Positions 25,313 to 33,425 of a stretch of 46,642 nucleotides of DNA are shown here, in pieces; the first letter of the stretch is position 1, and each line of letters starts with the position of its first letter. The translations under genes and the position numbers were made by a program. This DNA is from a virus. The notes under the pieces are model-generated. The model was not told the origin of the DNA and did no database searches. It saw only the letters and a program-made list of their open reading frames with translations. Where the stretch lies: IMG/VR virus record IMGVR_UViG_3300031977_000822, positions 1 through 46,642 of that record; one strand, 5' to 3'.

Positions 25313-25340
25313 AGGGGTACTATGTTATCACAGTACCCCT
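25313..25340 (-). terminator. Terminator-like hairpin overlapping a promoter
   Basis: Perfect 9-bp stem AGGGGTACT (25313-25321) / AGTACCCCT (25332-25340), 10-base loop. On the minus strand it is followed by only TTTAACTT, so termination may be partial. It lies just after the 25348-26325 gene, and the -10 of the next promoter is in its loop. Confidence 0.6.
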
Positions 25341-25350
25341 GATTTGTCTA
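25322..25350 (-). promoter_or_regulatory. Leftward promoter interlocked with a hairpin
   Basis: Minus strand: TAGACA (25345-25350), 17-base spacer, TAACAT (25322-25327) preceded by TGA (extended -10). The -35 overlaps the stop of the upstream gene. Weaker match than its neighbours; supported by position and by the same layout. Confidence 0.5.
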
Positions 25351-26325
25351 GTTGACAGATTGTCGCTGTGCTTTAAAGCTAGCTATCATCTGGGCTTTGA
25401 TATCATCATTGTCATCTTCATCATTTAATAATGAAGCTAGATTATCTGGTGCATATACCGATAATGCCATAGATGATTCTCCGTGTACTTGGCTTTCATT
25501 GATAGGACATTGTATATTAGCACAAGCTTTTTGAATCTCATCAAAATACCTGTAACTTTTGAATGCGTTCTCAATGATACTTACTTTTTTATCAAGCCAC
25601 TCAACATATGCTTGGTGTGTTTTAACTACATTACTCTTTGCAATCTGCCAAGTATTTAATGACTCATAAGTTTTGTCATCAACTTGAAAGTTACGAGAGC
25701 CACAGTAAGACCTACCAATAACTTCTATTTGGTAATGTTCTTGCCATTCTTTATTGTAGTTTTTACCACTCTCACTATTAACATTATACCTAGAGTAACC
25801 TAGATATTCATTGTTAGCGTCTTGATGTTTAGTCCAGTATGGATTGTTTCCCTTATTTCCAATACTCATTTGAGCATTAATGTCAGGATTTAGTCCTTTA
25901 CTTTTTAACTCATCACGATAGTATGCGTAAGCAAAGTCTCTACCATCATAACCTTCAACACTACCATATAAAGTAAAATCAAAATGTTTTGATTCTATTT
26001 TTTTAGTAGGTTGGTCGTTATAATCCACACTATCTACCTCATGTCCAATATAAAAGCAAGCGTCTTTTTGAATACAACCACCATTGGAATTATATTTAGC
26101 AATCATGTTATTGATTGTGTCAACATCTTCCTGCGGTTGATATCCTCTAATGATACCAGCTATTTTTTTATGGGTATGAGGAGTTAAGTCATCATACATA
26201 GACTTTGCGTCTTGCATGGCTAACTTGTATTTAGAATTTTTACTCTCGTAAAAATCCTTAACAACACTTACAGCATTCTTACGCATATCTGCGTTAAGCC
26301 GTAAGCGTTTTACCTTTGTTGTCAT
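25348..26325 (-). CDS. Unknown early protein (325 aa)
   Basis: The frame runs to 26367, but AAGGAG 5 bases before ATG 26325 decides the start (MTTKVKRLRLNADMR). Soluble, polar, rich in Asn, Tyr and Asp, with FYIGHEVDSVDYNDQ, FDFTLYGSVEGYDGRDFAYA and a C-terminal acidic stretch (LLNDEDDNDDI). An early gene with its own promoter (26394-26422) and terminator, so expressed independently. No family recognised; the expected role is host takeover. Confidence 0.8.
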   Translation of the reverse strand: MTTKVKRLRLNADMRKNAVSVVKDFYESKNSKYKLAMQDAKSMYDDLTPHTHKKIAGIIRGYQPQEDVDTINNMIAKYNSNGGCIQKDACFYIGHEVDSVDYNDQPTKKIESKHFDFTLYGSVEGYDGRDFAYAYYRDELKSKGLNPDINAQMSIGNKGNNPYWTKHQDANNEYLGYSRYNVNSESGKNYNKEWQEHYQIEVIGRSYCGSRNFQVDDKTYESLNTWQIAKSNVVKTHQAYVEWLDKKVSIIENAFKSYRYFDEIQKACANIQCPINESQVHGESSMALSVYAPDNLASLLNDEDDNDDIKAQMIASFKAQRQSVN

Positions 26326-26361
26326 ATGACTCCTTCTTTTTAAGTTTGCCTTAAAGTAAAA

Positions 26362-26391
26362 AGGCACTACCTGAATTAACAGATAGTGCCT
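26362..26391 (-). terminator. Terminator hairpin overlapping a transcription start
   Basis: Stem AGGCACTA-c-CTG (26362-26373), loop AATTAA, CAG-a-TAGTGCCT (26380-26391), followed on the minus strand by TTTTTACTTT. Ends transcripts of the 26411-26821 gene. The 5' arm overlaps the predicted start of the next transcript. Confidence 0.75.
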
Positions 26392-26393
26392 CT

Positions 26394-26422
26394 ATTATAA
26401 ATTAATTAATTTACTGTGTCAA
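26394..26422 (-). promoter_or_regulatory. Perfect-consensus leftward promoter
   Basis: Minus strand: TTGACA (26417-26422), 17-base spacer, TATAAT (26394-26399). The -35 lies in the last codons of the upstream gene (TTG ACA CAG TAA). Drives the 26,325 gene. Confidence 0.88.
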
Positions 26423-26821
26423 CTTGCCATTGATTAATTTTTTAAGGTCGGTAAATTTTACCTTATGCAAAGTTGATATTCTCATTGTGTCATTATTCAA
26501 TAAGTCATTGATAATAAAGACTTTTTTACCTACTGATATCCATTTCATAGTATCATAATTAATATTTCTTGGTTGACCTTTTTTCAAATCATGTGCAAGT
26601 AAATATTTATTTGGGTCAGTAGTTCTTTTTTTACCTTTGCGTTTTATAATCGTACCATCATCTTGCTTCCACTTACTTCTATACTTTAAATCAAAATGAC
26701 CAACACGATACTCACCATTCTTTTTTATGAAACCAACTCTAAATTTTTTAGCTTTAGTTTCATTAATTAATTCACCAATAAACTCTGAAAATTTACATGT
26801 GAATAATGTTTGTGTTTGCAT
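26411..26821 (-). CDS. Unknown basic early protein (136 aa)
   Basis: AAAGGAG 6 bases before the ATG. Basic and beta-rich (FRVGFIKKNGEYRVGHFDLK, TIIKRKGKKRTTDPNKYLLA), ending LTQ. Could bind nucleic acids; no named family. Forms a one-gene unit with promoter 26877-26905 and terminator 26362-26391. Confidence 0.8.
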   Translation of the reverse strand: MQTQTLFTCKFSEFIGELINETKAKKFRVGFIKKNGEYRVGHFDLKYRSKWKQDDGTIIKRKGKKRTTDPNKYLLAHDLKKGQPRNINYDTMKWISVGKKVFIINDLLNNDTMRISTLHKVKFTDLKKLINGKLTQ

Positions 26822-26843
26822 ATATCTCCTTTGTTAAAATAAA

Positions 26844-26875
26844 AAAGGCGTACCTAAATTAATAGATACGCCTTT
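26844..26875 (-). terminator. Terminator hairpin overlapping a transcription start (paralogue of 26362-26391)
   Basis: Stem AAAGGCGTA-c-CTA (26844-26856), loop AATTAA then TAG-a-TACGCCTTT (26863-26875), followed on the minus strand by a TTTTTTATTTT tract. Same mismatch and loop as the hairpin at 26362, with changed base pairs. Confidence 0.78.
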
Positions 26876-26876
26876 C

Positions 26877-26905
26877 ATTATATAGAAGAATCAAAGTTGT
26901 GTCAA
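26877..26905 (-). promoter_or_regulatory. Perfect-consensus leftward promoter
   Basis: Minus strand: TTGACA (26900-26905), 17-base spacer, TATAAT (26877-26882). It sits 3 bases after the stop of the 26908 gene and drives the 26,821 gene. Confidence 0.88.
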
Positions 26906-26907
26906 TT

Positions 26908-27087
26908 TTATTTAAACATATTTTGATTATCTTCTTCTATTTCTTTTTCTACTTTTTTTATTTCTTCATTAAGAAATATTCTTACACCAATGAGTGCAGA
27001 TAGTTTAGCATGCAAGTTAGCAGTTCGGCTTATTTTATTGTAAGCTTTCATCTGTTCTTGTATTAAATCATTAAAGCTATTCATCAT
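26908..27087 (-). CDS. Small helical protein (59 aa)
   Basis: The frame opens at TTG 27096, but ATG 27087 or 27084 is more likely. Helical (MNSFNDLIQEQMKAYNKISR, NEEIKKVEKEIEEDNQNMFK). Overlaps the upstream gene by 11 bases and is expressed with it from the 27364-27392 promoter. Unknown function. Confidence 0.7.
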   Translation of the reverse strand: MMNSFNDLIQEQMKAYNKISRTANLHAKLSALIGVRIFLNEEIKKVEKEIEEDNQNMFK

Positions 27088-27334
27088 AAGCACCAATGAT
27101 TATTTCACTATCTCCATGCTCACTTGATACAGGCATAGAAAAAGATTTTATTTGCTTATCCCAATCAGTAGTATCAGCACGCAATTCATTGGCACAATCT
27201 TTTGCATATCGCCAATGTAATAAGAATTGTGATGTAGCACCATTCATTTCAAACTCATGCAAAGCTTTAATGATATGTTTTCTACATTCACTTTTCCATT
27301 TTCTGATACCTGATTCTAGTTCAGGGTCTATCAT
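27077..27334 (-). CDS. Small early protein (85 aa)
   Basis: AAAGGAG about 7 bases before the ATG. Acidic, helical, with SGIRKWKSECRKHIIKALHE and RYAKDCANELRADTTDWDKQ and a C-terminal EHGDSEIIIGAYDE. No family recognised. Cotranscribed with the next gene. Confidence 0.74.
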   Translation of the reverse strand: MIDPELESGIRKWKSECRKHIIKALHEFEMNGATSQFLLHWRYAKDCANELRADTTDWDKQIKSFSMPVSSEHGDSEIIIGAYDE

Positions 27335-27363
27335 GATTTACTCCTTTAGTTTAAACTGAATGT

Positions 27364-27392
27364 AGTATAAATAAAAAAACCCCCTGTGTCAA
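27364..27392 (-). promoter_or_regulatory. Leftward promoter with -35 inside a terminator stem
   Basis: Minus strand: TTGACA (27387-27392), 17-base spacer, TATACT (27364-27369). The -35 is in the loop and 3' arm of the hairpin at 27380-27408, and the spacer is its U-tract. Confidence 0.82.
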
Positions 27393-27408
27393 GAGGAAAC
27401 ACAGAGGG
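27380..27408 (-). terminator. Strong leftward terminator overlapping a promoter
   Basis: Stem CCCCCTGTGT (27380-27389) / ACACAGAGGG (27399-27408), one C-A mismatch, 9-base loop; seven U residues follow on the minus strand. Terminates the 27437-27646 gene. Confidence 0.85.
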
Positions 27409-27436
27409 CTTTATTCGTTAGGAGAAACGAAACTTT

Positions 27437-27646
27437 TTATCTACTATTTAACTCGCTATAGGGCTCTAATATATTTTTTAATACTCTTAACTTCCATTCA
27501 GATATTTCATCTAAATAATTAGATGTATTCATTATACCTGCAATAGTTTTTAAATCAGCTATCAGAGTTTTGTTTTGTGTCATAATACTACCAACTAATT
27601 TTTGATGATAGTCGTGAACTGATTTATCTATTTTTATTTGTGTCAT
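27437..27646 (-). CDS. Small helical early protein (69 aa)
   Basis: AAAGGAGATACAA before the ATG. Helical (VHDYHQKLVGSIMTQNKTLI, LDEISEWKLRVLKNILEPYS). A one-gene unit between two terminators. Unknown function. Confidence 0.76.
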   Translation of the reverse strand: MTQIKIDKSVHDYHQKLVGSIMTQNKTLIADLKTIAGIMNTSNYLDEISEWKLRVLKNILEPYSELNSR

Positions 27647-27668
27647 TTGTATCTCCTTTGTTATGTAT

Positions 27669-27697
27669 ATAGTATAATAAAAAACCCCCTATGTCAA
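27669..27697 (-). promoter_or_regulatory. Leftward promoter with -35 inside a terminator stem (second copy)
   Basis: Minus strand: TTGACA (27692-27697) and TACTAT at 27669-27674 (spacer 17), or TATACT at 27671-27676 (spacer 15). The arrangement copies the module at 27364-27408. Drives the 27,646 gene. Confidence 0.65.
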
Positions 27698-27711
27698 ATA
27701 GACATAGAGGG
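27685..27711 (-). terminator. Strong leftward terminator overlapping a promoter (second copy)
   Basis: Stem CCCCCTATGTC (27685-27695) / GACATAGAGGG (27701-27711), one C-A mismatch, loop AAATA, six U residues on the minus strand. It ends the transcript of the microgene at 27737-27805. Confidence 0.86.
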
Positions 27712-27857: not shown

Positions 27858-28082
27858 TTATCTTTTAGCGTTATCTCTTAACTGGTAGATGTAATGTTTG
27901 TAATTAGATTGTAAAGGGCGTGTGTTTGGGTACATTAAAAGATATTCCATAATGATTTTATTTTTTTCAGGGTTATTATTTCTTACAAACCATTGAGATT
28001 CATAGTCATTAATAACCCCTACTGTATATTTAAAATTTTGCACCTCGCAATTTATATCAAGGTTTAATTTTAATTGTTCCAT
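27858..28082 (-). CDS. Small early protein (74 aa)
   Basis: Starts within the end of the 28070 membrane gene. Polar alpha/beta protein (LKLNLDINCEVQNFKYTVGV, YESQWFVRNNNPEKNKIIME), with LMYPNTRPLQSNYKHYIYQL near the end. Unknown function. Confidence 0.72.
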   Translation of the reverse strand: MEQLKLNLDINCEVQNFKYTVGVINDYESQWFVRNNNPEKNKIIMEYLLMYPNTRPLQSNYKHYIYQLRDNAKR

Positions 28083-28379: not shown

Positions 28380-28400
28380 TTTTTTACCTCGCTTTTTTGT

Positions 28401-29756: not shown

Positions 29757-29787
29757 AGGGGGGTACGCAGGCGACACAGGGGGGTAC
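29757..29787 (+). repeat. Two AGGGGGGTAC repeats 21 bases apart
   Basis: AGGGGGGTAC at 29757-29766 and 29778-29787, two helical turns apart and directly after the CACTTGAA repeats. These G-runs stand out in AT-rich DNA. Confidence 0.65.
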
Positions 29788-29942
29788 TGTATACATACAT
29801 ATGCACTCACCATAAAATATACAAAAGCCATGTTAACCACCTTGGGGCTAGATTTATTCTATCCCTATGTAGCTCCTGACGATACCTTAAGGGAGAATCT
29901 TGGGTAACCTTTAAATAGATACTAAGACCCCCCTGCGTACCC
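29761..29942. repeat. 11-bp inverted repeat GGGTACGCAGG
   Basis: GGGTACGCAGG at 29761-29771 and its reverse complement CCTGCGTACCC at 29932-29942, 160 bases apart. The pair could form a long-range stem in a leftward RNA, or be two protein sites brought together by looping. Confidence 0.6.
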
Positions 29943-29943
29943 T

Positions 29944-30000
29944 TAATGGTACATTATACACCTATATAAGGATTTTGTCAATAGGTAATTTGTACCATTA
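29944..30000. promoter_or_regulatory. 10-bp inverted repeat flanking a promoter (operator pair)
   Basis: TAATGGTACA (29944-29953) and its exact reverse complement TGTACCATTA (29991-30000), with the whole leftward promoter between them. The left half covers the predicted start site. Confidence 0.65.
29953..29981 (-). promoter_or_regulatory. Perfect-consensus leftward promoter into a gene-free region
   Basis: Minus strand: TTGACA (29976-29981), 17-base spacer, TATAAT (29953-29958). Transcription would run towards 29,538 and the antisense strand of the 28,680 gene, where no convincing leftward gene exists. Suggests a regulatory RNA. Confidence 0.82.
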
Positions 30001-30031
30001 TGTCACACCCAAATTATTTTTATAGAAACCC

Positions 30032-30059
30032 TTGACATTTTGTTAAATATTGTTATAAT
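30032..30059 (+). promoter_or_regulatory. Main rightward late promoter
   Basis: TTGACA (30032-30037), 16-base spacer, TATAAT (30054-30059): both hexamers perfect. It reads into the terminase, head and tail genes with a leader of about 115 bases. It is back to back with the leftward promoter at 29953. Confidence 0.85.
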
Positions 30060-30146
30060 AGATAATCATGGGTCTATCAAAGGGATCACACACATTATCA
30101 CGGTAAATATACACACCAGGATTATCACTGATACACCCATCTAATA

Positions 30147-33248: not shown

Positions 33249-33425
33249 ATGCCTAAGAAAAAGAAAGAAGAAACTTTAGAGGATATAGTAGAAAGAATGG
33301 AAGAAGATTTAAATACATTGCGTCATAAGATTTGGGATATGCAATGTGAAACAAATGAATCATCAGATGATGAAGATGAAGAAGATTTTGATGATGAGGA
33401 CAACGATGACGAGGAGGATGAATAA
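33249..33425 (+). CDS. Small protein with a strongly acidic tail (58 aa)
   Basis: AGGAG 7 bases before ATG 33249. N-terminal basic and helical (PKKKKEETLEDIVERMEEDL), then from residue 40 almost only Asp and Glu to the end. Such tails bind basic partners or mimic DNA. One base of spacing to the next gene. Confidence 0.7.
   Translation: MPKKKKEETLEDIVERMEEDLNTLRHKIWDMQCETNESSDDEDEEDFDDEDNDDEEDE

Follow-up and report, generated by a model that had tools for sequence, protein, structure and literature searches.

Five short cassettes, each combining a hairpin with a promoter-like pair of hexamers, occur in the leftward early region of this phage, and we interpret them, with a probability of about two in three, as composite promoter-terminator insulators that resemble the promoter early stem-loops (PeSLs) of T4-type phages, head the early region and make its units largely independent of one another. 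In the mechanism that we propose, the hairpin and its T-tract would act as an intrinsic terminator against RNA arriving from the preceding gene, and the interlocked sigma70-type promoter would allow host RNA polymerase to start the next unit, presumably early in infection. The cassettes may double as junctions at which relatives exchange early genes.

The window, by which we mean the whole stretch of 46,642 bases analysed from the virus record, encodes a portal protein sharing 76% identity with its counterpart in Pelagibacter phage HTVC033P and about 47–53% with those of the next relatives, including HMO-2011-type phages. Judged by these similarities, the window is an HMO-2011-type phage with HTVC033P close by, and an ocean virus of SAR11-type bacteria. 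HTVC033P is the representative of subgroup IX of the HMO-2011-type group (PMC9038755). No near DNA match was found among phage records, and the relatives compared here are related IMG/VR contigs (L numbers) together with HTVC033P. The structural genes of the window run rightward. The leftward genes, among them those for primase, helicase and DNA polymerase, extend from about 28 kb down to a plain intrinsic terminator on the minus strand (12337–12315) that likely closes the leftward operon.

The cassettes, numbered M1 to M5 and all on the minus strand, fall into three geometries. In class A (M2 and M3), a TTGACA-17-TATAAT promoter is followed by a hairpin that begins 1 nt past the -10 hexamer, and the predicted start lies in the 5' arm. 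In class B (M4 and M5), the hairpin comes first, with the TTGACA of the -35 in its loop and 3' arm, and the -10 follows the T-tract. In class C (M1), the hairpin lies over the -10 of a weak promoter and has a weak T-tract. Following the direction of transcription, M5 (27716–27669) has a hairpin at about 27716–27680, TTGACA at 27697–27692, and two options for the -10, TATACT at 27676–27671 (15-nt spacer) or TACTAT at 27674–27669 (17 nt). Its unit is a 69-aa early gene of cluster c13 (27646–27437), and a module stands ahead of the same gene in three relatives (L005, L115 and L016). M4 (27412–27364; hairpin 27412–27376, TTGACA 27392–27387, -10 TATACT 27369–27364) precedes an 85-aa early gene of cluster c7 (27334–27077) and a 58-aa gene that overlaps it (27084–26908). 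M3 (26905–26843) consists of TTGACA (26905–26900), a 17-nt spacer, TATAAT (26882–26877) and a hairpin (26876–26843) with the predicted start near 26870–26869, and stands ahead of a 136-aa early gene of cluster c1 (26821–26411). M2 (26422–26360) has the same layout (TTGACA 26422–26417, 17 nt, TATAAT 26399–26394, hairpin 26393–26360, predicted start near 26387) and precedes a 325-aa early gene of cluster c3 (26325–25348), which has no family match. In M1 (25350–25313), the TAG of the -35 TAGACA (25350–25345) is the stop codon of the preceding gene, TAACAT (25327–25322) follows after 17 nt, and the hairpin (25340–25313) straddles this -10 and ends in the weak T-tract TTTAACTT. A 131-aa gene of cluster c4 (25290–24895) comes first after M1 and heads the long leftward replication operon. 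Searches of the unit genes against Pfam and PHROG returned nothing except one weak match of the 136-aa protein to PHROG 2267, a family of unknown function, and the modules matched no family in Rfam.

The initial annotation had described a hairpin joined to a promoter at these five places, and each of them does hold both. With the detector, hairpins of at least 12 bp occur only five times on the whole 46.6-kb minus strand, in each case at an M1–M5 site. Four of the five overlap a sigma70-like promoter scoring at least 10/12 (10–12/12). When the promoters were shifted, overlaps averaged 0.26 with a maximum of 3 in 6,606 shifts, and shuffled strands held 0.07 modules per strand and no strong ones, the modules having been picked partly with detectors that demand pairing and hexamers; the overlap of promoter and hairpin in the window is not due to chance. 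The TTGACA/TATAAT class assigned to all five promoters stands for M2 to M5. In these modules a G+C-rich stem abuts a T-tract, and there and in the relatives the -35 and -10 lie about 17 nt apart, and the spacer drifts although TTGAC and the main bases of the -10 never vary. The hairpin of M1 is real, but its promoter scores 9/12, which is chance level (a simple scan gave 64 promoter-like sites per 10 kb, compared with 53.6 in shuffles); the same geometry occurs with 10/12 promoters in the relatives L008/L106 and L009/L025. Every start had been placed inside or after the 5' arm, every promoter at or just past a stop codon, and a single gene in every unit. In fact, the predicted start falls inside the arm in M2 and M3, after the whole terminator in M4 and M5, and in the 3' arm in M1. 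The promoter begins directly at the stop codon or shortly after it in M1 and M3, has its -35 inside the 3' end of the upstream gene in M2 (stop 26413–26411), and lies about 40 nt past the stop in M4 and M5. Single-gene units fail for M4, with its two genes, and for M1, with its operon.

Several other features lie upstream of the modules. On the minus strand just upstream of M5 (27805–27738), a 22-codon open reading frame with a ribosome-binding site encodes the hydrophobic peptide MTLIKYTVIFWFATGVIAGFVA. The 11-mer TTGCGAGGTGC is found on the same strand at two places that precede small genes, near 28050 and 27845, and a related GCGAGG lies near 28390; it could be a shared leader or operator. 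Farther upstream, the region 29758–30060 contains divergent consensus promoters, TTGACA-17-TATAAT on the minus strand (29981–29953) and TTGACA-16-TATAAT on the plus strand (30032–30059). The minus-strand promoter has TAATGGTAC/GTACCATTA on its flanks and is followed by a gap of about 160 nt bounded by inverted repeats (about 29942–29928 and 29772–29758). This region had no match in Rfam, and we raise the question of whether it is an operator or a structured RNA.

Only class A calls for a special explanation, because its hairpin sits between the promoter and the gene. Class B needs no escape: it keeps the ordinary order of a tandem intrinsic terminator and sigma70 promoter, but with shared bases, the -35 being part of the hairpin, and transcription would start beyond the hairpin. 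Class A reverses that order. Transcription from a class A promoter would start 6–7 nt into the 5' arm, and the resulting RNA would lack the base of the stem beside the T-tract. The 7–8 bp of stem that remain would stand several unpaired bases away from the T-tract, and termination would not be expected. With the start set about 7 bases past the -10, at the nearest purine, all class A modules of the lineage have a predicted start that is a purine and lies within the 5' arm. Full stems have calculated energies of about -15 to -21 kcal/mol, compared with mostly -6 to -12 when counted from the predicted start, and in most class A cases the module's own transcript would retain 7–9 bp, with 3–6 unpaired bases ahead of the T-tract. 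For L038 and L052, just 2 nt of the arm would be lost with the nominal start, and 11 bp would stay; on the assumption of another -10 register, more of the arm would be removed.

The same module classes are present in related IMG/VR contigs and in HTVC033P, and comparison of these sequences indicates that the geometry is kept though the sequence diverges. We surveyed 85 distinct hairpins of the lineage, measuring the offset from the -10 to the hairpin for promoters scoring at least 11/12. Offsets of +1 to +5 were found in 25, of -49 to -42 in 11, and of -65 or -54 in three, with a few beyond +60. Not one of the 85 hairpins lay complete at +6 to +60 nt downstream of a strong promoter, as the escape model requires. 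These offsets bear on plain compactness, according to which the overlap is a by-product of economy and self-exemption was never selected. We consider this quite unlikely: short gaps and the ordinary order of class B with its shared bases are what economy would produce, but economy alone would not favour the class A order, because the hairpin would stop its own transcript, and it does not predict a tight +1 to +5 offset with nothing at +6 to +60. The hairpin with its T-tract, which falls in the first 35 nt or so past the -10, could also be a regulated attenuator or an antitermination loading site, so that each unit would be expressed only in response to a factor from the phage or the host. This is very improbable, as the base of the stem is missing from the predicted own transcript, no loop or linear motif is conserved across the hairpin types, and no Rfam family was recovered.

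Covariation points to the pairing itself. In the stems ahead of c1, 95.2% of cells are paired and 8 of 13 pairs show double changes, a score reached by 0 of 500 shuffles, and in those ahead of c3, 95.3% are paired and 6 of 13 pairs show double changes; these tallies count sequences rather than events, and module types may be replaced rather than evolved in place. The pattern supports, in silico, selection on the hairpins as hairpins. One of the c3 pairs with double changes, 34-60 (A-U/G-C), is situated promoter-side of the predicted start. Only transcripts that enter from upstream contain it, and the complete hairpin thus appears to be important for such transcripts. It is conceivable that the hairpin instead serves its own mRNA, the residual 5' stem blocking decay or shaping translation and the likeness to a terminator being secondary. 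The residual 7–9 bp stem does start close to the predicted 5' end or exactly at it, stems in that position are known to stabilise mRNAs (ompA), and in some relatives the stem is kept although the T-tract is missing. However, most copies have a strong T-tract, needless for a stabiliser, pairing reaches and covaries upstream of the predicted start in bases missing from the own mRNA, and class B hairpins lie entirely upstream of the start, which makes this explanation unlikely.

Stems with little or no T-tract occur at the c3 position in L041, L050/L052, L117 and L118. In the first three contigs this hairpin (TCTTCAACAA) spans 3180–3210 in L041, 4470–4500 in L050 and 6953–6983 in L052, and with no T-tract there, termination is unlikely. 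A pure terminator fails to explain why the stem was kept when the T-tract was lost, and the stem may therefore serve another purpose as well, possibly at the mRNA 5' end or in recombination. The proposal in the initial annotation that RNA from upstream stops and the module's own RNA escapes therefore survives in part: covariation, the class A starts, the empty offset range and the confinement to early genes favour it, but it does not apply to class B, is weak for M1, and fits poorly with the relatives that lack a T-tract.

The overlap was also looked for ahead of the same genes in relatives, with genes located by protein similarity and modules sought within 300 nt upstream. Modules were present ahead of 13 of 17 c1 genes, 10 of 14 c3 genes, all four genes of c63 and c64, 5 of 14 c4 genes, 5 of 13 c7 genes and 4 of 6 c13 genes, compared with 0 of 226 operon-internal genes. 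Both the window and L115 have five modules, and HTVC033P has three or four; none was found in the examined stretches (first 30 kb, early half) of HMO-2011, CRP-3, CRP-345 and HTVC104P, or in 50 kb of HTVC008M. This intergenic placement between early genes would also suit RNase III sites, like those of T7, at which a polycistronic early transcript is cut. Stems of 11–16 bp are short for RNase III, and the abutting T-tracts and promoters would be left unexplained, making this reading hardly credible.

In the loci that were mapped, a module precedes c4 if this gene comes after c3 or c51, but not if it comes after c1 in one unit. Hairpin types recur ahead of different genes, the M2 type ahead of three gene clusters and the M3 type ahead of two, even within one genome. 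Between the window and L008, identity rises from about 55% to 95–100% at the edge between the -10 and the hairpin of M2, and the window and L115 share a block of about 54 nt over the M3 hairpin with diverged flanks. These breakpoints, seen in few genome pairs, suggest that the hairpins are likely recombination junctions between relatives.

Composite elements of this kind have precedents, and the initial annotation, which knew of no description of the arrangement, was only partly right. PeSLs are reportedly to be attributed to Arbiol (2010) and Comeau (2014), and RB49 is the prototype of the PeSL phages. RB49 composites are mostly a terminator followed by a promoter in tandem, the hairpin starting 65–82 nt before the end of the -10, and in a few others the hairpin occupies the promoter spacer or covers the -10. 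In most, the terminator is wholly upstream of the promoter, whereas the offsets in our lineage are +1 to +5 (class A) and -49 to -42 (class B). No more than one or two instances of class A geometry were found in about 124 kb of RB49, whereas in the pelagiphage lineage no other type is as common; because RB49 is mostly terminator-then-promoter in tandem, class A is a new form of such elements, and to that extent the initial annotation holds. Another promoter-hairpin interlock occurs in RB49 (L096) at 33330 and 25333, where a hairpin fills the TTGAC/TATACT spacer, GTTGAC[GCGGGGAgaaaTCCCCGT]TATACT. In two reports that cite this work, PeSLs are described as composite promoter-terminator elements of T4-type phages, located in the gaps between small, variable early genes, with gene shuffling as a proposed role (PMC4503421, PMC5348500). 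Our modules likewise combine an early-type promoter with a terminator stem-loop in intergenic gaps, and a variable region of small early genes holds several of them; recurring hairpin types before different genes and the identity breaks, in few genome pairs, are consistent with the proposed shuffling but bear on it indirectly. Unlike PeSLs, the modules occur outside T4-type phages, in a phage of the unrelated HMO-2011 type. In the haloarchaeal virus HGTV-1, a TATA-box and inverted-repeat motif precedes most left-arm ORFs and was likened to PeSLs by its describers (PMC3950731). It too pairs a promoter element with an inverted repeat ahead of many small ORFs, but the promoter is archaeal.

In an independent scan of viral contigs, the pattern TTGACA-17-TATAAT with a T-run 22–44 nt further on, pairing not being demanded, gave among the matches listed at least 80 readable occurrences. 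At least 26 of these have a hairpin, which begins at -2 to +5 in 20 of the 26; the pattern restricts offsets to roughly -14 to +20, and the excess is therefore an enrichment, not proof. Within that range, it again speaks against compactness. The contigs mostly carry single modules ahead of other genes, and among the matches listed the class A placement occurs in several unrelated viral contig families, whose sequences matched no named phage. The exact class B pattern was not found across the viral contigs. A match of M3 to an Enterococcus phage (E=0.02) was weak and was set aside as probable chance. A TATAATAACCAC...GTGGTTATTTTTTT-like module is common to nine unrelated contigs (L132, L142, L148, L151, L152, L161, L162, L184 and L201), and in some of them the hairpin takes in part of the -10; a gene for a small membrane protein follows, and the one such protein tested had no PHROG family. 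The chances seem even that a self-exempting terminator, in which one short element with its start within the 5' arm stops all upstream transcription and spares its own, is used repeatedly by unrelated phages.

The rule that we offer is that termination of one transcript or the other depends on the placement of the start with respect to the 5' arm. If this is true, the cassettes would represent a simple design that insulates neighbouring genes within about 60 bp of a compact genome, and would help to explain how the exchange of early genes in phages of the dominant ocean bacteria can leave neighbouring genes undisturbed.
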